The notes under the pieces are model-generated. The model did no database searches, was not told the origin of the DNA, and was given only the letters and a program-made list of their open reading frames with translations. Below, one piece after another: positions 6,293-54,546 of a stretch of 64,000 nt of DNA (positions are counted from its first letter, which is position 1; every line of letters begins with the position of its first letter). The translations under genes and the position numbers were made by a program. This DNA comes from Oleisolibacter albus (GTDB lineage Bacteria > Pseudomonadota > Alphaproteobacteria > Azospirillales > Azospirillaceae), in assembly GCF_003336875.1 (NCBI RefSeq), contig NZ_QGNJ01000004.1:124001-188000 (forward strand). The letters are read 5' to 3'.

Positions 6293-7060
6293 TCACAGCC
6301 GTGGCACAACGGCCACGGTTCCGGCGGCGGCCAGACGCTCGACGGCGACGGGGACCCCATACAGCGCGGCCAGGGCCTGTGCCGTCGCCACCCGGGCCGG
6401 GGGGCCGAGGGCGGCCAGCCCGCCCGGACGCAGCAGGGCCACCCGGTCGGCCAGGGCATGGGCCTGGGCCGGGTCGTGGGTGGACAGCACGATGCTGTGG
6501 CCGGCATCCCGCAGCTGCCGCACCCGTTGCAGCACCCGGACCTGATTGCCGAAATCCAGGCTGGCCGTCGGCTCGTCCATGACCAGGACGGGGGCGCCCT
6601 GAGCCAGGGCGCGGGCGACCAGGGCCAGTTGACGCTCGCCGCCGGACACCTCGGCATAGGAGCGGCCGGCCAGGTGCGCGATCCCCACCGACTCCAGCGC
6701 CGCATCCGCGGCCGCCCGGTCGGCGGCGGCGGGCGTGGCGAACAGGCCGATCTGGGCCGCGCGCCCCATCAGCACCACATCCCGAACCCGGTAGGGGAAA
6801 TGCACCGTGTGACTCTGTGGGAGGAAGGCAATGCGGCGCGCCACCGCCCGTCTTGGCAGGCCGGCCAGATCGGCGCCGCCCAGCCGCACCTGCCCGCCCA
6901 GGGGCGGCAGCAGCCCCAGCAGCGTCTTGAACAGCGTGGTCTTGCCGCTGCCGTTGGGGCCCAGCAGGCACAGCACCTCGCCGGGCTCCAGGCTGAGCGT
7001 GATCCCGCTGCCCAGGGTTCGGCCGGGATAGCCATAGGCCAGGTCCAGCGTTTCCAGCAT
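6293..7060 (-). CDS. ABC importer ATPase, FecE/BtuD type
   Basis: ATP-binding subunit of a metal-chelate importer. The start is the ATG at 7060, which forms an ATGA overlap with the permease stop; a longer reading to 7096 would intrude into the permease. The 255 residues carry Walker A GPNGSGKT (34-41), Q-loop FLPQSH, signature VSGGERQ, Walker B VLVMDEP and the switch His in LSTHDPAQ. The family (FepC/FecE/BtuD/HmuV) powers uptake of iron siderophores, heme, cobalamin or molybdate. Last gene of the SBP-permease-ATPase operon. The substrate cannot be decided from sequence alone. Confidence 0.9.
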   Translation of the reverse strand: MLETLDLAYGYPGRTLGSGITLSLEPGEVLCLLGPNGSGKTTLFKTLLGLLPPLGGQVRLGGADLAGLPRRAVARRIAFLPQSHTVHFPYRVRDVVLMGRAAQIGLFATPAAADRAAADAALESVGIAHLAGRSYAEVSGGERQLALVARALAQGAPVLVMDEPTASLDFGNQVRVLQRVRQLRDAGHSIVLSTHDPAQAHALADRVALLRPGGLAALGPPARVATAQALAALYGVPVAVERLAAAGTVAVVPRL

Positions 7061-17206: not shown

Positions 17207-18811
<1,605 letters not shown>

Positions 18812-47037: not shown

Positions 47038-48702
47038 TCAGCCCGACGGATCAACGGGGGGAGGGCCCGGTGGGCCGGCGGGGGGAAGGATGGCGCCGGC
47101 CCGGGCTGCCAGGATGAACCGGTCGAACCGGGCCGCCGTCCGGTCCAAGGCGGACCGGACAACCCGGTCATAGTGTCCGCTGGCCGCGGCCCTGGACTGC
47201 CGCAGGCGTTCCACGTCGTCGATGAGTGCCAGCGCGGCCGCCACATAGCCGTCCGGTGTCGCAGTCACCAGCTCGTCCCGCTGCAACAGGGCCAGGATCG
47301 ACGCGGTCGTCCGTGCCGAGGGGAGCGCCCCGCACAGCGTCAGCACCGGCACACCCTGGGACAGCGCATCCAGGCTGACCAGCCCGCCGCTGTAGGGATA
47401 GGTGTCCAGGGCCAGATCGATATCCCGATGGCGCGCCAGATAGGGGGCAAGGGCTTCGCGGCCCTCGAAGCGGAGTCGATGCGGCGCGATCCCGAAATCC
47501 GCCATCCGCCGCAACACCCGGCGTTCGACGCCCGGGTCGGCATAGAGATCGTCCTTCAGGATCAGCTCCGTCGCCGGTCTGGCCGCCATGATCCGGCCCC
47601 ACATCGCCAGCAGCGGGTCGGACAGCTTCTCCGCCCGGGCGAAGCAGCCGAGCCTGACCGGACCGGGGGGATCGCGCGGGGGCTCATCCCCCTCGGGGGC
47701 CGGCTGGAGGTCGCACAGGGTCGGGCAGGGGACATCCACCAGGGCTTCCGGGAACAGGTGCCGCTCCGACCGGGGGGCCAGCACCGGGTCGGTGACCAGC
47801 GCGTCGATCCCCGGCGTCCCCGGTCCGGGAAGGTACCCCCAGGCCGAAACCTGCACCGGGGCCGGCCGCAGGGCGAACAGGCCCAGCCGGTTGCCGGAGG
47901 TATGCCCGTCCAGGTCGACCAGGATATCGACGGCATCGGCGCGGATCAGGCGGGCCGCTTCCTCGTCGCTCAGGCCCACCAGGGACCGCCACCCGTCCAC
48001 CGCCAGCCGCAGCCGGACGGTCATCCCGTCCCGGCGCGGGCTGCCCGAATAGCAGGTGATCCTGACCCGGCCGCGGTCGTGACGCTCGATCAGCGGCACG
48101 AAGACCCTGGCGGCGGCATGGGAGCGGAAGCAGGCCGAGACATAGCCCACATGCACACGGCCCTGCGGGTCCGCCGGCGGCGGGACCGCCCTGGCCGCTC
48201 CCGGAAAGATCCCGCGCTGCAACGCCTTCAGCCCGGCCGTCGTCGCCCCCGGGTCGAGGGAGGCGGCATAGATGATGTTCGAGGCCGTCAGGCGGTCCGT
48301 CGGGTCGATCCGGCACGCTTCCCGCCAGGTCTCGACGGCCCCGGCAAGGTCACCAAGCTGCATCAGGGCGTTCCCCCGCTCCCTCAGCAGCCGGCTGGTC
48401 CTCGTGCCCGTGGCAAGGGCCCGGTCCGTCCGCGCCAGCGCCAGCGTGGGGCGGGACAGCCGCACCGCTATCCGCGCGGCGTCCGTCATCAGGTCCGGGT
48501 CGTCCGGGTGGTCGGCGAGGGCGGCCGCCAGCGTCCCCTCGGCCACGGCGTAGTCGCCGGCAAGGGCCTGTGCCCGCGCCAGCGCAAGCCTGGCCCCGGG
48601 GCCGGCACGGCGCAGCAGGTCGAACGCTTCCGTGAAGGCCCCGGCCTGCGCCAGCCGCCAGCCTTCCGCCAGGATCCTGTCCCGGCCCGCCTGATCGGAC
48701 AT
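47038..48702 (-). CDS. TPR + SPINDLY-type (GT41) O-linked glycosyltransferase
   Basis: 554 residues from the ATG at 48702, which overlaps the kinase stop by 1 nt (TGATG). Residues about 1-150 hold helical TPR-like repeats (ILAEGWRLAQAGAFTEAFDL, NALMQLGDLAGAVETWREAC). From about residue 165 is the GT41 catalytic region: VHVGYVSACFRSHAAARVFV, VDILVDLDGHTSGNRLGLFA, RPAPVQVSAWGYLPGPGTPG and LDTYPYSGGLVSLDALSQGV. These match OGT/SPINDLY, which transfer GlcNAc or fucose to Ser/Thr hydroxyls. It is the last gene of the peptide-linked operon, so the peptide core is an attractive acceptor. Sugar donor unknown. Convergent with chaC. Confidence 0.9.
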   Translation of the reverse strand: MSDQAGRDRILAEGWRLAQAGAFTEAFDLLRRAGPGARLALARAQALAGDYAVAEGTLAAALADHPDDPDLMTDAARIAVRLSRPTLALARTDRALATGTRTSRLLRERGNALMQLGDLAGAVETWREACRIDPTDRLTASNIIYAASLDPGATTAGLKALQRGIFPGAARAVPPPADPQGRVHVGYVSACFRSHAAARVFVPLIERHDRGRVRITCYSGSPRRDGMTVRLRLAVDGWRSLVGLSDEEAARLIRADAVDILVDLDGHTSGNRLGLFALRPAPVQVSAWGYLPGPGTPGIDALVTDPVLAPRSERHLFPEALVDVPCPTLCDLQPAPEGDEPPRDPPGPVRLGCFARAEKLSDPLLAMWGRIMAARPATELILKDDLYADPGVERRVLRRMADFGIAPHRLRFEGREALAPYLARHRDIDLALDTYPYSGGLVSLDALSQGVPVLTLCGALPSARTTASILALLQRDELVTATPDGYVAAALALIDDVERLRQSRAAASGHYDRVVRSALDRTAARFDRFILAARAGAILPPAGPPGPPPVDPSG

Positions 48703-49643
48703 CAGGGGCATGGGGCTGCGCCGCCGGCCATGGCGGCGAGATGGGCCGCAAAGCCTGGCAGCCGGTCGAGCCCGTCGGGGGCCGAAACCGAGAATACCGG
48801 GACGGCCGCGCAAAGGTCCGCCACAGACGCCAGCAGATCCCTCCGGCTTCCCAGCAGGGGGGCGACCGAAAGCCCGGTCACATGGGACAGGAGCATCGGC
48901 ACGGCCAGGGCCGGCGGCAGCCGCTTGATGGACCCGCTGCCGGGCTGGCGCCCGGTGAGAAGCACGACGGCGCCGATCCGGACCGGTTCCGGGGACAGCC
49001 CCGCGGGGATGGGCAGGCGCACCTTGCCGTCGGCCGTCGGCGCGCCCCGCAGCGCCAGGGCGTCGGCGGCATCGGGCAGCAGGCGGAGCGCGGGGAAGAC
49101 CGGCCGCAGAACCGGGCCGTCCGGCCCCGGCTCCGGTGCGCACAGGTCGTCGGCCACAACCACGCCGCCGGCCTTCATCAGGGCCGCCAGCAGGGTGGAC
49201 TTGCCCCTGCCGCTGGCGCCGTGGACAAGGATGGCCCGTTCCCCGACCGACACCGCGCCGGCATGCAGCGGCAGCCGGTCCCTGTACAGCAGGGCCGCGG
49301 ACAGGGCAGCGCCGGGGATGAAGTCCAGGGCCTCGTCGATCTGGGCGGCTGTCCGCCCCCAGACCGTCAGCGCCCGGCCGGCGCGGAGATGCAGCCGCCC
49401 GCCCAGGGGGGGCTGGACAAGCCACGCATCGCCGCCGACGGCCCAGTTCGGCCCCCGGGTCGCTTCCCCCTGGATGTCGGGCGGGGCGCCGGTCCTGACG
49501 ATCCGGATGGTCAGGTCGGCCGGTCCGTCCCCGGCCGGCAGGGCCGGAAGCCGAAGCGGCGACAGGATATTCAGTCCGCCGACCGCATGGGAAAACCATT
49601 GCGTCCCCTGCGCGCCGGCCGGCAGGCGGGGCCCGTCAGGCAT
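48702..49643 (-). CDS. HprK-related P-loop kinase (peptide kinase-like)
   Basis: 313 residues from the ATG at 49643, which overlaps the PqqD-like gene by 8 nt. The C-terminal half shows the HPr kinase-like signature LPLHAGAVSVGERAILVHG, then Walker A GASGRGKST and an Asp pair in VVVADDLCAP, as in lasso-peptide kinases (ThcoK/PadeK) and HprK-like proteins. The N-terminal region (about residues 1-115) is unrelated to the HprK regulatory domain. Such kinases phosphorylate Ser side chains; in lasso systems the target is the C-terminal Ser of the precursor. Both peptides encoded upstream end in Ser. HPr itself is not encoded here. Kinase activity is inferred, not shown. Confidence 0.75.
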   Translation of the reverse strand: MPDGPRLPAGAQGTQWFSHAVGGLNILSPLRLPALPAGDGPADLTIRIVRTGAPPDIQGEATRGPNWAVGGDAWLVQPPLGGRLHLRAGRALTVWGRTAAQIDEALDFIPGAALSAALLYRDRLPLHAGAVSVGERAILVHGASGRGKSTLLAALMKAGGVVVADDLCAPEPGPDGPVLRPVFPALRLLPDAADALALRGAPTADGKVRLPIPAGLSPEPVRIGAVVLLTGRQPGSGSIKRLPPALAVPMLLSHVTGLSVAPLLGSRRDLLASVADLCAAVPVFSVSAPDGLDRLPGFAAHLAAMAGGAAPCP

Positions 49644-49935
49644 CCGCCACCGGGGGGGCGGCCAGCAGCCCGGCCTCTTCAAGGCTGTTGAGGAAGGTCA
49701 GCACGTCGGCAAGGCAGGTGGCCGCGTCCACGTCGTACATCTTGCCCAGGCGGGCGCAGATATCACGGACCGCCATGGGCGACGTGATCAGGGCGCCGAT
49801 CCGGCTGCCCGTGGCCCCCAACGCGGCATAGGTGCCGGTCTCCGCGTTCAGGAGCACGGTTTCCCCGTCGATTTCGGTTTGCAGCAGCCCGCTGGCCAGG
49901 GCCACGATGCTGTCCGCTGTCATTGTCCGTCCCAT
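49636..49935 (-). CDS. PqqD-family peptide-binding protein (RRE-like)
   Basis: 99 residues from the ATG at 49935, with AGGGGGAGC just upstream; an ATG four codons later (49923) is possible. LLQTEIDGETVLLNAETGTY, followed by AALGATGSRIGALI, is the PqqD winged-helix pattern. The C-terminal helices are rich in Asp/Leu (VDAATCLADVLTFLNSLEEA). PqqD proteins bind RiPP leader peptides and present them to modifying enzymes. Here it would recognise the conserved 40-residue leader. It precedes the HprK-like gene with an 8-nt overlap. Confidence 0.8.
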   Translation of the reverse strand: MGRTMTADSIVALASGLLQTEIDGETVLLNAETGTYAALGATGSRIGALITSPMAVRDICARLGKMYDVDAATCLADVLTFLNSLEEAGLLAAPPVADA

Positions 49936-49969
49936 GCTCCCCCTCTTTCCTTCGAATGCAATCGCAGCA

Positions 49970-50830
49970 TCAGGCCGCCAGGGGCTTGCGCCAGGCGACA
50001 CAGGTCCAGTCCACCGTCTCCAGCGGGGCCTGGATGCCCTTCGTCAGCCGGAAGGCCTCGATGGCGAACCGGCAGCCGGGCAGCGCACCATAATCGTCCA
50101 CGATGACATATCCCCCGGGGGTGACCTTGCCATAGAGCGCGGAAAGCGTATCCAGGGTCGAGGTGAACAGGTCCCCGTCCAGGCGCAGGACCGCCAGGGA
50201 CTCGACCGGCAGGGTCGGAAGCGTGTCCGCGAACAGGCCTTCGACCAGGACGACATCGTCCCCCCACAGGCCGAAGCGGCGGAACGCCTCCTCGACCAGG
50301 GGCCGCTGTATGGCCAGTTCGGGCCGGTCCGACAGCGCGACGCCGGCATCGGCGGGATGGCTCGGCGGCGGCACCCCGGCAAAGCTGTCGGCCAGCCAGA
50401 CACGGCGGCCAGCCGCCCCATGGGCCTTGAAGAAGCCGCTGGCGAACAGGCCGCAGCCGCCGCGCCAGACCCCGGCCTCCAGGAAATCGCCGGCGATCCC
50501 GTCCTCGAGTATCTGCGCCAGGCACCGTTCCAGGTGGTCCAGGCGGAGGCGTCCGCTCATCGTGAAGGCGCAGTCAAGGCCGATATCATCGCGGGAGGTC
50601 CGCCCTTCCTGCCGCCGCCGGGCCAGGGCCGCGAAGCGGTCCGCCTGAAGCAGCCGGATATCCCGCAGGACGATGCGATCCGGTGTCGTCCCCGACCGGG
50701 CGCACTCATGCAGGTAGGCGATACGCAGCTCGGCTTCCAGCCCTGTCTCGTTCAACAGGACCTTCTTCAGCAGGTCGAGATAGAGGCTGGCCGGATCGCA
50801 GGCCCGGGCGGGTTCCGGAACCGGGCTCAC
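49970..50830 (-). CDS. TylF/MycF-family O-methyltransferase
   Basis: 286 residues from a GTG at 50830 that overlaps the CmcI-like stop by 4 nt (GTGA). TylF family features: MSGRLRLDHLERCLAQILED and GIAGDFLEAGVWRGGCGLFA (SAM motif I, with the acidic ExGVWRGG), then VWLADSFAGVPPPSHPADAG, LRLDGDLFTSTLDTLSALYG and GGYVIVDDYGALPGCRFAIE, whose Asp residues ligate Mg2+. Characterised TylF/MycF enzymes methylate sugar hydroxyls of macrolides. With a glycosyltransferase in the same operon, a methylated sugar on the peptide is plausible. Confidence 0.88.
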   Translation of the reverse strand: MSPVPEPARACDPASLYLDLLKKVLLNETGLEAELRIAYLHECARSGTTPDRIVLRDIRLLQADRFAALARRRQEGRTSRDDIGLDCAFTMSGRLRLDHLERCLAQILEDGIAGDFLEAGVWRGGCGLFASGFFKAHGAAGRRVWLADSFAGVPPPSHPADAGVALSDRPELAIQRPLVEEAFRRFGLWGDDVVLVEGLFADTLPTLPVESLAVLRLDGDLFTSTLDTLSALYGKVTPGGYVIVDDYGALPGCRFAIEAFRLTKGIQAPLETVDWTCVAWRKPLAA

Positions 50831-51555
50831 AGCGCCGTTCCGCCGTCCGCAGCGGTTTCGCGGCGGCGCAGGTACCCGCCTGCGTTCAGCGAGAGCAGGA
50901 ACCGCTCACAGCTCCGGTCCACCTCGAATTCGGGATGGCGCGCCAGGAAGAAGGCGGCCGCTTCCGCCGGCCCCGGCCCGTGTTCCGGCTGGTTCGGCCG
51001 GCCATTGACATGGGTGTCCTCGGCGATCAGGTATCCGCCCGGCCGCACCAGGGGGGCATAGGCCTCCAATTCGTCCAGCACATGCAGCAGACGGTGGTCG
51101 CTGTCCAGGATCACCAGGACCTCCGGCGCGGCAGCGTCGGGACCCGCGTCGTTCCGACTCGCGGCGGCGCGTGCGCGCACGGCGTCGAGGATTTCCGGGC
51201 TGGTCGTGCTGCCGGCGAGGAACTCCAGCCGGGGATGGGCCGGCAGGTCGGCGCCCGGGCCATTGCGGAGGTCGATGCTGACGACCCGGCCATGGCCGAC
51301 AAGGTCGCAGACAGAGGCCAGGAACAGGGCGCTGCCGCCCTTGTGCGTCCCGCATTCCACGATCAGGTCCGGGCGGCGGCGGACGATGATCTCCTGGTAT
51401 ATCCACAGGTCGGTCGGATATTTGATCGCCGTGCGGCCCAGCCAGTCGCAATGCAGCGACCGGCGGCCATCGATGAACCGCTGGTGGACAAGGCGCATAT
51501 AGGCCTGGACCACATCCTGCTCGTGCGCGGACAGATCGTCGCCAAGGGGAGACAC
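50827..51555 (-). CDS. CmcI-family methyltransferase/hydroxylase-like protein
   Basis: 242 residues from the GTG at 51555 (GGAAGG 5 nt upstream). An ATG at 51609 would start inside the duplicated spacer with no ribosome-binding site. The sequence matches the cephalosporin hydroxylase (CmcI) family: WLGRTAIKYPTDLWIYQEII, PDLIVECGTHKGGSALFLAS (motif I), VVSIDLRN, LVILDSDHRLLHVLDELEAY and GGYLIAEDTHVNGRPNQPEH. CmcI acts in cephamycin 7-methoxylation, and homologues occur in sugar and polysaccharide loci. It is the first tailoring gene after the peptide genes. Confidence 0.85.
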   Translation of the reverse strand: MSPLGDDLSAHEQDVVQAYMRLVHQRFIDGRRSLHCDWLGRTAIKYPTDLWIYQEIIVRRRPDLIVECGTHKGGSALFLASVCDLVGHGRVVSIDLRNGPGADLPAHPRLEFLAGSTTSPEILDAVRARAAASRNDAGPDAAAPEVLVILDSDHRLLHVLDELEAYAPLVRPGGYLIAEDTHVNGRPNQPEHGPGPAEAAAFFLARHPEFEVDRSCERFLLSLNAGGYLRRRETAADGGTAL

Positions 51556-51642
51556 GTCAACCTTCCCGACTGGAGGCCCGCAACGGACGGCCCTGGTGCC
51601 GGCAACCATGCGCCGGTGTGGAGAATGACAGGTGGATGCCGA

Positions 51643-51804
51643 TTATGAGCCCATGCACGCGTCCGATGATAGGCTGGGGCCCATCTGCGTTTCACGCAGG
51701 TTCATCACCGTGGCGACCGGTGCCGTCCACGGCAGCCGCTCCGCGTGGAGATCCGTTCCAGAAACGCCGATCGGGGCCTCTTCGTTCTTGCCAGCGATGC
51801 GCAT
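51643..51804 (-). CDS. Candidate RiPP precursor peptide A
   Basis: 53-residue peptide from the ATG at 51804, with a strong GGAGG and 8-nt spacing, ending in TAA. It is too short for a usual gene caller. The leader begins MRIAGKNEEAPIG; it ends PWTAPVATVMNLRETQ and has an aromatic-x-x-Pro (WTAP) resembling the RRE-contact motif YxxP of lasso leaders. The last 13 residues, MGPSLSSDACMGS, are the putative core. Relative to peptide B, only Ile3/Val3 differs in the first 40 residues, while 8 of the last 13 differ. It lies 87 bp before the CmcI-like gene on the same strand and is probably the first gene of the tailoring operon. Non-canonical: no Lan/YcaO/lasso cyclase nearby. Confidence 0.75.
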   Translation of the reverse strand: MRIAGKNEEAPIGVSGTDLHAERLPWTAPVATVMNLRETQMGPSLSSDACMGS

Positions 51805-51839
51805 AGAAAATACCTCCAAAGTAAAAATTGTCTCGAAAG

Positions 51840-51868
51840 ATGTAATTCCTCGGCGGAGTGCGGGTCAA
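51840..51868 (-). promoter_or_regulatory. Candidate promoter of peptide A and the tailoring operon
   Basis: TTGACC (51868-51863), a 17-nt spacer and TTACAT (51845-51840), in the duplicated spacer between the nrdJ tail and the peptide ATG. The same hexamers and spacing occur in unit B. Confidence 0.45.
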
Positions 51869-51901
51869 GCAATCCTTATCGGTCTGCGTATATTGATCTG
51901 C

Positions 51902-51969
51902 TCACCCGCTGCATCTGCTGTAGCCACAGCTGGGGCAGAGGTCGCCGCCTTCCTGGCGGACCGCCCCGG
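51902..51969 (-). pseudogene. Duplicated 3' end of nrdJ
   Basis: 68 bp copied from the nrdJ C-terminus. Read in frame it gives VRQEGGDLCPSCGYSRCSG and the stop at 51902. The intact gene has Cys where this copy has the second Gly (EGCDLC versus EGGDLC), so a zinc-type Cys is lost. It has no start and is a by-product of the duplication that created the second peptide gene. Confidence 0.9.
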
Positions 51970-51970
51970 T

Positions 51971-52008
51971 GCCGGCAACCATTCGCCGGTGTGAGAATGG
52001 TTGCCGGC
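51971..52008 (-). other. Perfect 13-bp hairpin between the two peptide genes
   Basis: GCCGGCAACCATT (51971-51983) pairs fully with AATGGTTGCCGGC (51996-52008), 12-nt loop. It begins 6 bp past the peptide B stop. No U-tract follows on the minus strand, so it is not a textbook terminator. It may slow decay of the peptide B message or partly insulate it from the operon. In unit A the right arm is changed and the stem is lost. Confidence 0.7.
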
Positions 52009-52013
52009 GTCAC

Positions 52014-52175
52014 TCACGACGTAGCGCAAGCCTCCGCTGATGGGGTGGAGCCCAACTGCGTTTCACGCAGGTTCATCACCGTGGCGACCGGTGCCGTCCA
52101 CGGCAGCCGCTCCGCGTGGAGGTCCGTTCCAGAAACGCCGATCGGGGCTTCTTCGTTCTTGCCAGCGACGCGCAT
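52014..52175 (-). CDS. Candidate RiPP precursor peptide B
   Basis: 53 residues from the ATG at 52175, GGAGG with 8-nt spacing, TGA stop at 52014. The leader is that of peptide A with Val3 instead of Ile3; only three of its 120 nt differ. The last 13 residues are LGSTPSAEACATS. Aligned with MGPSLSSDACMGS of peptide A the shared positions are Gly2, Ser6, Ala9, Cys10 and Ser13, with Asp/Glu at 8. It sits between intact nrdJ (97 bp) and the copied nrdJ tail, on the same strand as the tailoring genes. Precursor identity is inferred from arrangement and divergence pattern; the product is unknown. Confidence 0.75.
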   Translation of the reverse strand: MRVAGKNEEAPIGVSGTDLHAERLPWTAPVATVMNLRETQLGSTPSAEACATS

Positions 52176-52210
52176 AGAAAATACCTCCAAAGTAACGATA
52201 GTCTCGAAAG

Positions 52211-52239
52211 ATGTAATTCCCCGGCGGGGTGCGGGTCAA
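52211..52239 (-). promoter_or_regulatory. Candidate promoter of peptide B
   Basis: TTGACC (52239-52234), 17-nt spacer and TTACAT (52216-52211), identical to the unit A elements and preserved in spite of spacer substitutions. Confidence 0.45.
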
Positions 52240-52272
52240 GCAATCCTTATCGGTCTGCGTATATTGATCTGC

Positions 52273-54546
52273 TCACCCGCTGCATCTGCTGTAGCCACAG
52301 CTGGGGCAGAGGTCGCAGCCTTCCTGGCGGACCAGCCCGGGCTGGCCGCAGCGGGGGCAGGGGGCGGGGCGGGCCGCCGTGCCGCCCGTGCCACCCGTGC
52401 CGCCGGTACCGGCCAGGGGGACCGGCTGCGCCAGGAAGCCGATATCCAGCAGATGGCGCTCGATGACGGTGCCGATGGCGGCCAGCAGTGACGGGACGTA
52501 GCGGCCCTGCATCCATTGGCCGCCGCGCGGGTCGAACACGGCCTTCAGCTCCTCCACCACGAAGGCGACGTCACCGCCGCGGCGGAACACGGCCGAGATC
52601 ATGCGCGTCAGCGCCACGGTCCAGGCGTAATGCTCCATGTTCTTGGAATTGATGAACAGCTCGAACGGCCGCCGCCGGCCATCCTCGACCACATCGTTGA
52701 CCGTGATGTAGAGGGCATGGTCGCTTTCGGGCCAGCGCAGCTTGTAGGTCTGGCCCGGCAGCACCTCCGGCCGGTCCAGGGGCGCTCCGGCGGCATCCAG
52801 GGACGGCACCGGCGGTGCCCTGTCGGCCGGGCTTCCGGCCGTGTCCCCCTCTGCCGGCAGCGACAGCACGGCCCCGGTCACCGGGTTGGGCCGATAGGTG
52901 GTGCAGCCCTTGCAGCCCAGGGCGTAGGCCTGGAGATAGATGTCCTGGAAGGCGCTGAAGGGCACGTCGGCGGGGCAGTTGATGGTCTTGCTGATGGCGC
53001 TGTCGACATACTTCTGTGCCGCTGCCTGCATCACCAGATGGGCGGCCGGACTCAGCGTCTGCGCATCGACGAAGGCGTCGGTCAGCGGGGCCGCCTCCCC
53101 GTGCAGCCGCCGGTACAGGCGGTAGGCGTGGTCCTCCACCGTTTCGCTCTGCCGGCTGCCGTCGGGCATCAGCACGGCGCGGTCGTAGCGGAAGGCGAAG
53201 ACCGGCTCGATGCCGCTGGAGACATTGTCGGCCAACAGCGAGATGGTGCCGGTGGGCGCGATCGAGGTCAGCAGAGCATTGCGGATGCCGTGGGCGGCGA
53301 TCTGGCCGCGCAGATCGTCCGGCAGGCCGCGCAGCATGGGCCGGTCCAGATAAAGTGCGCGGTCGAACAGGGGAAAGGAGCCCTTCTCCGCCGCCAGCGC
53401 GGCCGAGCTGCGATAGGCCTGGTCGCGGATGGTCCGCAGCCAGCCTTCGGTCAGCTGCACTGCCCGCTCGCTGCCATAGCGCACGCCGCACAGGATCAGG
53501 GCGTCGGCCAGCCCGGTGACACCCAGCCCGATGCGCCGCTTGGCCCGCGCCTCCGCCGCCTGCGCCTCCAGCGGGAAGCGGGACACATCGATGGCATTGT
53601 CCAGCATGCGCACGGCCAGCGCCACCACCCGCGCCAGCGCAGCCCTGTCCAGATCGGCCTGCGGTGTGAAGGGCTGGCGCACCAGCGCCGCCAGATTGAC
53701 CGACCCCAAAAGGCAGGCGCCATAGGGCGGCAGCGGCTGCTCGCCGCACGGGTTGGTCGCGGCGATATCCTCGCAATAGGACAGGTTGTTCTGCTGGTTG
53801 ATGCGGTCGATGAAGATGACGCCGGGTTCGGCATAGTCGTAGGTGGCGCGCATGATGCGCTCCCACAGGGCCCGCGCCGGCAGCCGGCGGTGGACGCGGC
53901 CGGCGAAGACCAGGTCCCACGGCCCATCGGCCCGCACCGCCTCCATGAAGGCGTCGGTCACCAGCACCGACAGGTTGAAGTTGCGCAGCCGGCCGGGGTC
54001 GCGCTTGGCGTCGATGAACAGTTCGATGTCCGGATGGTCGCAGCGCAGCGTCGCCATCATGGCGCCGCGGCGGCTGCCGGCGCTCATGATGGTGCGGCAC
54101 ATGGCATCCCAGACGTCCATGAAGCTGACGGGGCCGGAGGCGTCGGCCCCGACTCCGGCCACGGCGGCGCCCTTGGGCCGCAGGGTGGAGAAGTCATAGC
54201 CGATGCCGCCGCCCTGCTGCAGGGTCAGCGCCGCCTCGCGCAGATGGGCGAAGATCGACCCCATGTCATCGGGGATGGTGCCCATGACGAAGCAGTTGAA
54301 CAGGGTCACCGACCGGCTGGTGCCGGCACCGGCCAGGATGCGGCCGGCGGGGATGAAGGTGAAGCCGGCCAGGGCATCGTGGAAGCGCGCCGCCCACAGG
54401 GCGGGGTCGGCCTCCGCGGCCGCCAGCGCCGTGGCGACCCGGCGCCAGCTGTCCTCCACCGTCTCGTCCAGCACGCGCCCGTCCGGCTGCTTCAGCCGGT
54501 ATTTCATGTCCCAGATGCGGCGGGAGATGGGGGCGATGTCGGGCAT
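52273..54546 (-). CDS. nrdJ: Adenosylcobalamin-dependent (class II) ribonucleotide reductase
   Basis: Makes deoxyribonucleotides with coenzyme B12 and needs no oxygen. The ATG at 54546 (MPDIAPISRRIWDMKYRLKQ, 757 residues) has GGAG about 8 nt upstream. Key blocks: FVMGTIPDDMGSIFAHLREA, GGGIGYDFSTLRP, the radical-cysteine motif in ATNPCGEQPLPPYGACLLGS, and APTGTISLLADNVSSGIEPV. A C-terminal Cys-rich tail CPRCGQPGLVRQEGCDLC, then CPSCGYSRC, serves as the redox shuttle. Its 3' end is the source of the duplicated fragment at 51902-51969. Confidence 0.95.
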   Translation of the reverse strand: MPDIAPISRRIWDMKYRLKQPDGRVLDETVEDSWRRVATALAAAEADPALWAARFHDALAGFTFIPAGRILAGAGTSRSVTLFNCFVMGTIPDDMGSIFAHLREAALTLQQGGGIGYDFSTLRPKGAAVAGVGADASGPVSFMDVWDAMCRTIMSAGSRRGAMMATLRCDHPDIELFIDAKRDPGRLRNFNLSVLVTDAFMEAVRADGPWDLVFAGRVHRRLPARALWERIMRATYDYAEPGVIFIDRINQQNNLSYCEDIAATNPCGEQPLPPYGACLLGSVNLAALVRQPFTPQADLDRAALARVVALAVRMLDNAIDVSRFPLEAQAAEARAKRRIGLGVTGLADALILCGVRYGSERAVQLTEGWLRTIRDQAYRSSAALAAEKGSFPLFDRALYLDRPMLRGLPDDLRGQIAAHGIRNALLTSIAPTGTISLLADNVSSGIEPVFAFRYDRAVLMPDGSRQSETVEDHAYRLYRRLHGEAAPLTDAFVDAQTLSPAAHLVMQAAAQKYVDSAISKTINCPADVPFSAFQDIYLQAYALGCKGCTTYRPNPVTGAVLSLPAEGDTAGSPADRAPPVPSLDAAGAPLDRPEVLPGQTYKLRWPESDHALYITVNDVVEDGRRRPFELFINSKNMEHYAWTVALTRMISAVFRRGGDVAFVVEELKAVFDPRGGQWMQGRYVPSLLAAIGTVIERHLLDIGFLAQPVPLAGTGGTGGTGGTAARPAPCPRCGQPGLVRQEGCDLCPSCGYSRCSG

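Follow-up and report, generated by a model that had tools for sequence, protein, structure and literature searches.

The locus described here raises the question of what acceptor is served by a PqqD-like recognition protein, a kinase, a glycosyltransferase and two methyltransferases encoded side by side. It lies in a 64,000-nucleotide stretch of contig NZ_QGNJ01000004.1 of Oleisolibacter albus (hereafter the window), and consists of seven genes, all on the minus strand, in the order peptide B, peptide A, CmcI-like, TylF-like, PqqD-like, HprK-like and TPR-GT41 (hereafter the cassette). An earlier note on this DNA had read it as a pathway similar to those of ribosomally synthesised and post-translationally modified peptides (RiPPs), a reading now supported by the recurrence of both cassette and precursors in Tistrella, the modification chemistry itself still being a matter of prediction. 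We conclude, with a probability of about 60%, that the cassette is a RiPP cluster built on the recognition and kinase platform of lasso peptide pathways, without the enzymes that form the lasso ring, and that its product is probably a linear glycopeptide bearing both phosphate and a methylated sugar. Re-reading the open reading frames (ORFs) of the window confirmed the gene order given in the note, as well as the short overlaps (1 to 8 nt) that it had reported, which are of 4 nt for CmcI-TylF, 8 nt for PqqD-HprK and 1 nt for HprK-GT41, the last becoming 10 nt if GT41 starts at ATG 48711 rather than at ATG 48702.

The two peptide genes are each preceded by the same strong ribosome-binding site, TTTGGAGG. 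Their TTG starts, as given by the ORF finder, are 15 nt too long, and the ATG starts were taken instead. Peptide B has a leader ending in ...LPWTAPVATVMNLRETQ, followed by a core of approximately LGSTPSAEACATS; peptide A has a leader like that of peptide B, and a core of approximately MGPSLSSDACMGS. Of the 220 window ORFs with a length of 40 to 100 aa, no others have both a WxxP motif and a Ser-terminated tail of suitable length. This comparison, together with the homologous ORFs found beside the cassette in three other genomes (see below), ruled out that peptides A and B are chance ORFs.

Both genes are copies inside a 371-bp tandem duplication, which runs from the 3′ end of a reductase gene to near the CmcI start, and whose copies are about 95% identical outside the block formed by the core and the 3′ sequence. 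The leaders of A and B differ at 1 of 40 residues, with two silent changes in the first 40 codons, whereas 8 of the 13 residues encoded by the last 13 codons differ (Fisher p 1e-5, for a leader/core boundary chosen post hoc). Such a sharp contrast between leader and core is what a RiPP precursor predicts. The divergent block extends from the core beyond the stop codon, so that the core may just as well have been replaced as a segment as have changed by point mutation. The earlier note had not mentioned the duplication, nor that part of the upstream ribonucleotide reductase gene (its 3′ end) is included in it. A perfect 14-bp inverted repeat with a 10-nt loop (window positions 51971-52008) directly follows the stop codon of peptide B and is missing from the second copy; placed between the two peptide genes, it is possibly a hairpin for transcript ending or processing.

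A protein search of plasmid records matched the cassette on pTM1 of Tistrella mobilis, where the genes follow the order peptide, CmcI, TylF, peptide, PqqD, kinase, GT41. Genome searches added two further Tistrella genomes, all three Tistrella matches coming from the GT41 class sample, and the five-gene order CmcI-TylF-PqqD-HprK-GT41 is kept in the three species. Identities between the window and T. mobilis range from 65% (CmcI), 61% (TylF) and 51% (PqqD) to 47% (GT41) and 38% (kinase), which points to an old association and not to a recent copy. One or two short WxxPVA ORFs, ending in Ser and with a core rich in Ser and Thr, are located beside every cassette (4 genomes of 4). The proposal that a short leader/core ORF always accompanies these five genes thus held in all three further instances, and at no homologous cassette were the peptides absent. 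Nor are the tailoring genes found mainly in polysaccharide loci devoid of peptide: the T. mobilis cassette sits between a beta-lactamase-family gene and MaoC/lyase genes, which is not a polysaccharide context.

When the seven cassette peptides (window and three Tistrella) were aligned, invariant R, W, P, V and A residues and an invariant C-terminal Ser were seen. The leader motif is WxxPVA followed by (N/M)L, and each core contains 4 to 6 Ser or Thr. The defining features of a RiPP, namely a ribosomal precursor with a conserved leader and a variable core next to modifying enzymes, are present in the four cassettes.

The cassette appears rare. Ten genus-mates were searched for the peptide without a match. 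In a sample of 385 genomes of the class, GT41 proteins close enough to count as orthologues were confined to Tistrella, whose three genomes gave the only cassette candidates, and a sample of 398 genomes of the phylum added neither a CmcI of that closeness outside Tistrella nor a further candidate, the weaker matches to either protein not having been inspected one by one. A contig scan, which requires exact short patterns and hence undercounts, yielded no match with the single PqqD of the window and, with a four-member PqqD alignment under the same constraint, the cassette in T. mobilis alone.

The PqqD-like protein found its best matches among models of the lasso RiPP recognition element (RRE), yet scored below the NCBIfam cut-offs for lasso PqqD. 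The nearest solved relatives of the cassette RRE profile are the lasso RREs 9x90, TbiB1 and TfuB1, and in a tree the RREs of the four cassettes group together as one clade (99/98), placed among those of lasso type. The WxxPVA motif, for its part, fits the lasso leader motif [Y/W]xxPx[L/V/I/A/F/Y], here in the company of a discrete PqqD that stays under the lasso cut-offs. As for the kinase, the active-site motif H...GxxGxGKS...DD is kept in the window protein, and its H, GKS and DD residues do not vary across 12 sequences; the motif is reported to be conserved among lasso kinases (PMC10368454). The predicted structure (pLDDT 84) has a PEPCK/HprK-type fold (Z 15.9, 270 aligned, rmsd 5.0); the top Foldseek matches are PEPCK entries, not HprK, and the likeness to HprK comes from sequence. 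A second, short HprK-like similarity (33% over 78 aa) lies at about 18071-18301 of the window, on the minus strand, and is perhaps the housekeeping HPr kinase.

Pfam and PDB relatives indicate that the glycosyltransferase consists of a TPR and a GT41 domain. Its SHAAAR/NHAAAR and EKL motifs are conserved in the four cassettes, and we take the His of the former and the Lys of the latter to be the equivalents of the OGT active-site residues. The GT41 relatives OGT and SPINDLY transfer GlcNAc or fucose to Ser or Thr of proteins. The TylF-like enzyme has MycF and NovP among its relatives of known structure, which methylate sugar hydroxyls, and the CmcI family includes rhamnosyl O-methyltransferases according to family and model matches.

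The pathway that these enzymes suggest would run as follows. The PqqD-like RRE would bind the WxxP motif of the leader and present the core, and the HprK-like kinase would phosphorylate a core Ser, most likely the invariant C-terminal one. This site is suggested by analogy with PadeK and PsmK, which phosphorylate the C-terminal Ser, PsmN hexosylating the phospho-Ser (PMC9266682); it is not certain, since BsfK and LppK phosphorylate Ser3 (PMC10368454, PMC13381572). GT41 would O-glycosylate either Ser or Thr of the core or the Ser bearing the phosphate, and O-methylation of the sugar would be the task of the TylF- and CmcI-type enzymes. The product would be of some 13 to 15 aa, and it is expected to be linear because cyclase genes are absent from the locus. 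As the two precursors combine a common leader with different cores, one enzyme set would yield two products. Direct support for this reading comes from the gene order, its recurrence in a distant genus, the leader/core divergence, the enzyme families, the fold and motif of the kinase, and the absence of cyclase and B2 peptidase from the contig; every modification, the cleavage site and the linearity of the product are what we infer.

The relation to lasso pathways was apparent in the order to which the host belongs, where relatives of the window kinase are present in 28 of 82 genomes. A lasso-type AsnB cyclase was found in 17 of 18 related kinase loci, and a B2 peptidase in at least 12 of them. 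Sixteen of the 17 other WxxP precursors examined (15 from such kinase loci and two orphans of the window's genome) have a terminal Ser, the sole exception, L061/L065, ending in SG. A kinase accompanied by a precursor with terminal Ser is therefore the usual pairing. The window's own genome provides an example at locus C40, with two precursors ending in ETQNGSSGAFDGTGFS and ETRAGGPGTIDGGIFS, similar in form to ETQMGPSLSSDACMGS. Neither AsnB nor B2 was found in the window, in the three Tistrella stretches (0 of 4 cassettes), or in C33, the contig of the window.

Several observations weigh against the pathway outlined above. No gene for a leader peptidase or an exporter is present in the cassette, which has been seen in two genera only. 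Elsewhere in its genome, the window strain has 4 B2 genes, 5 AsnB genes of lasso type and a further AsnB-like match that is more distant, and each Tistrella genome has one B2 and several AsnB, so that cyclisation in trans is possible. The product could then be a true lasso peptide, for which the cassette would supply precursor, RRE, kinase and tailoring, with B2 and AsnB coming from another locus of the same genome. The cores do keep, around position 7-8, an Asp or Glu such as is required for a lasso ring, and the window peptides have T(-2) with D8/E8 if cut after ETQ (an assumed position); moreover, orphan precursors occur elsewhere in the window's genome. We nevertheless consider this rather unlikely, as kinase loci normally have an AsnB of their own (17 of 18, versus none of the four cassettes), the leader Thr is mostly missing from the Tistrella peptides, and cores of 13 to 15 aa are at the short end of the lasso range, with a first residue that is often not Gly.

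Alternatively, the five enzymes may act on some other acceptor (glycolipid, polysaccharide or protein), the short ORFs being orphan lasso-like precursors or regulatory peptides. The TylF, CmcI and GT41 families all include members acting on non-peptide sugars or proteins, and orphan precursors of a similar type exist in the genome. Given that peptides stand beside the cassette in all four genomes, that PqqD and kinase would have no evident role without them, and that T. mobilis carries its cassette outside any polysaccharide locus, this is improbable. Finally, a RiPP could be made with a kinase that is degenerate or serves only as a scaffold, or with methyltransferases modifying the C-terminal carboxylate or side chains instead of the sugar. 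The kinase is indeed the least conserved protein of the cassette (38% to T. mobilis), and lasso peptides with an O-methylated C terminus are known (StspM, PMC9266682). This we regard as very improbable: the catalytic residues are all conserved, sugars or small molecules are the main substrates of the TylF and CmcI families, and the position of two methyltransferases next to a glycosyltransferase favours sugar methylation.

The nearest described class is that of the Linear Polyphosphorylated Peptides (LPP), which have an RRE, an HprK-like kinase, an NTP transferase, an SpI peptidase and an exporter, lack a cyclase, and are reported to be restricted to Bacillota (Popov et al. 2026, PMC13381572). 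Common to LPP and cassette are a discrete RRE and an HprK-like kinase in a locus that lacks a macrolactam cyclase, short precursors with a [Y/W]xxP leader motif and variable cores, and a relation to lasso pathways; LPP clusters hold one to three precursors, and the cassettes one or two. In contrast, the SpI-type leader peptidase, the NTP transferase and the MsbA-like exporter of LPP were found neither in the cassette nor in the annotated T. mobilis neighbourhood, the LPP precursor motif YxxPxVLxHQxIxFETxxS is replaced by WxxPVA then (N/M)L, and phosphorylation occurs on Ser3 in LPP (the characterised example having a core of 45 residues), whereas the cassette cores have 13 to 15 residues and end in Ser. 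GT41, TylF and CmcI, as well as alphaproteobacterial hosts, further set the cassette apart from LPP. The phosphorylated lasso peptides (paeninodin, syanodin, pseudomycoidin, Bsf) share with it the WxxP/YxxP leader, the PqqD-type B1 RRE and the HprK-like kinase; paeninodin-like precursors also have the C-terminal Ser, and pseudomycoidin is also glycosylated. Their clusters however carry a B2 peptidase and an AsnB-like cyclase, both missing from the cassette, and neither GT41 nor sugar O-methyltransferases are described for them, pseudomycoidin using the nucleotidyltransferase-like PsmN. Closest by host, the kinase-bearing lasso-type loci of Azospirillaceae (for instance L047, L048, L051, L065, L066), from the same genome or family, have a homologous RRE and kinase and Ser-ended WxxP precursors, but contain AsnB and often B2, hydroxylases or sulfotransferases; TylF or CmcI was present in none of the loci examined. 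With glycocins and OGT-type protein O-glycosylation the cassette would share O-glycosylated Ser or Thr in a ribosomal peptide or protein, which for the cassette is a prediction. In glycocins the cores are held by disulfide bonds, and no lasso-type RRE or kinase is involved.

We judge the cassette to be a variant of the lasso-related phosphorylated RiPP kind and a member of neither the LPP nor the lasso class, because it shares the core logic of LPP while lacking, on the LPP side, the YxxP motif, the peptidase, the exporter and the NTP transferase and, on the lasso side, both defining genes. The earlier suggestion of an undescribed RiPP-like system is supported, with two refinements. The cassette itself was not found described in the open-licence literature on GT41 RiPPs, PqqD/HprK RiPPs or Tistrella lasso peptides, but it derives from the lasso-type RRE and kinase platform, and a similar concept has been published for LPP (PMC13381572). 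It is possible, and we propose it tentatively, that GT41, TylF and CmcI combined with a lasso-derived RRE and kinase define a distinct RiPP family outside Bacillota, making linear phosphopeptides capped with a methylated sugar, and the first use of GT41 in RiPP maturation. The comparison suggests that the lasso-type recognition and kinase platform was re-used without ring enzymes more than once, in the LPP of Bacillota and here in alphaproteobacteria. The small precursors lend themselves to probing phosphate and methylated-sugar modification, and if GT41 does act on the core, it would be an OGT relative dedicated to a peptide of about 13 residues and served by a recognition element of its own, a useful tool for enzymology. 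The near-universal terminal Ser across kinase loci also leads to a simple prediction of the phosphorylation site.

Positions of the cassette features in the window, and of orphan precursors elsewhere in the genome
Feature	Position	Strand	Remarks
Precursor peptide B	52014..52175	-	ATG 52175, stop 52014, 53 aa; homologues in Tistrella
Precursor peptide A	51643..51804	-	ATG 51804, stop 51643, 53 aa; homologues in Tistrella
Tandem duplication, unit ~371 bp	51584..52325	.	spans the nrdJ 3′ end, the peptide gene and the region upstream of CmcI
CmcI/rhamnosyl-type O-methyltransferase	50827..51609	-	PF04989 1.8e-51; start codon uncertain, possibly 51498 or 51555
TylF/MycF-type O-methyltransferase	49970..50830	-	PF05711 3e-86; GTG start; 4-nt overlap with CmcI
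PqqD-like RRE, lasso type	~49636..49935	-	PF05402 1.9e-15
HprK-like peptide kinase (predicted)	48702..49643	-	weak PF07475 match 6e-4; 8-nt overlap with PqqD
TPR + GT41 (OGT/SPINDLY-like) glycosyltransferase	47038..48711	-	PF13844 1.3e-33; ATG 48711 or 48702
Orphan precursors	L170 (C1:566000-580000), ~6907-7014; L012 (C17:26709)		WxxP, Ser-ended

Upstream of the cassette, on the same strand, is the class II ribonucleotide reductase gene (nrdJ), and downstream, on the opposite strand, a ChaC gene. That the cassette had inserted into a conserved junction of ChaC and nrdJ was considered and found unsupported, as the genus-mates keep DUF2125-ChaC, with nrdJ not adjacent. An ORF of 853 aa spanning GT41 (47038-49599) was rejected as an artefact of a far-upstream start.

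The genome of the window is dense in lasso-type loci, sets of PqqD, kinase and AsnB being present at five other loci (C1, C23 twice, C40, C41) with differing precursors. The two orphan precursor-like ORFs of the table, ending in ...DWRAPVLRTVDISETAIGPDPALDALVTS and ...AWTAPAVTTVDLAQLTLGDGYTGADDTILGS, had no PqqD or kinase alongside; like the window pair, the one at L170 closely follows, in the same orientation, a ribonucleotide-reductase-like gene, though a different one. Among kinase-bearing lasso-type loci, L052 combines AsnB and B2 with a GT41 homologue, and sulfotransferase-like ORFs (recognised by eye from the motif YPKSGNTW) were seen in L052 (6262-7143 and 8634-9437) and L046 (11102-12094), which suggests that tailoring sets are exchangeable among such loci. 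Tail fiber ORFs (tail-collar type) lie near the precursor or the cyclase in the Azospirillaceae loci L047, L065 and L066, three being annotated in each of the last two. Lastly, each of the three Tistrella has an orphan B2-like gene (PF13471), with neither a cyclase nor an RRE in its vicinity (L128 9688-10212 in T. mobilis, L129, L131), which in T. mobilis adjoins an isopropylmalate-synthase-like gene.

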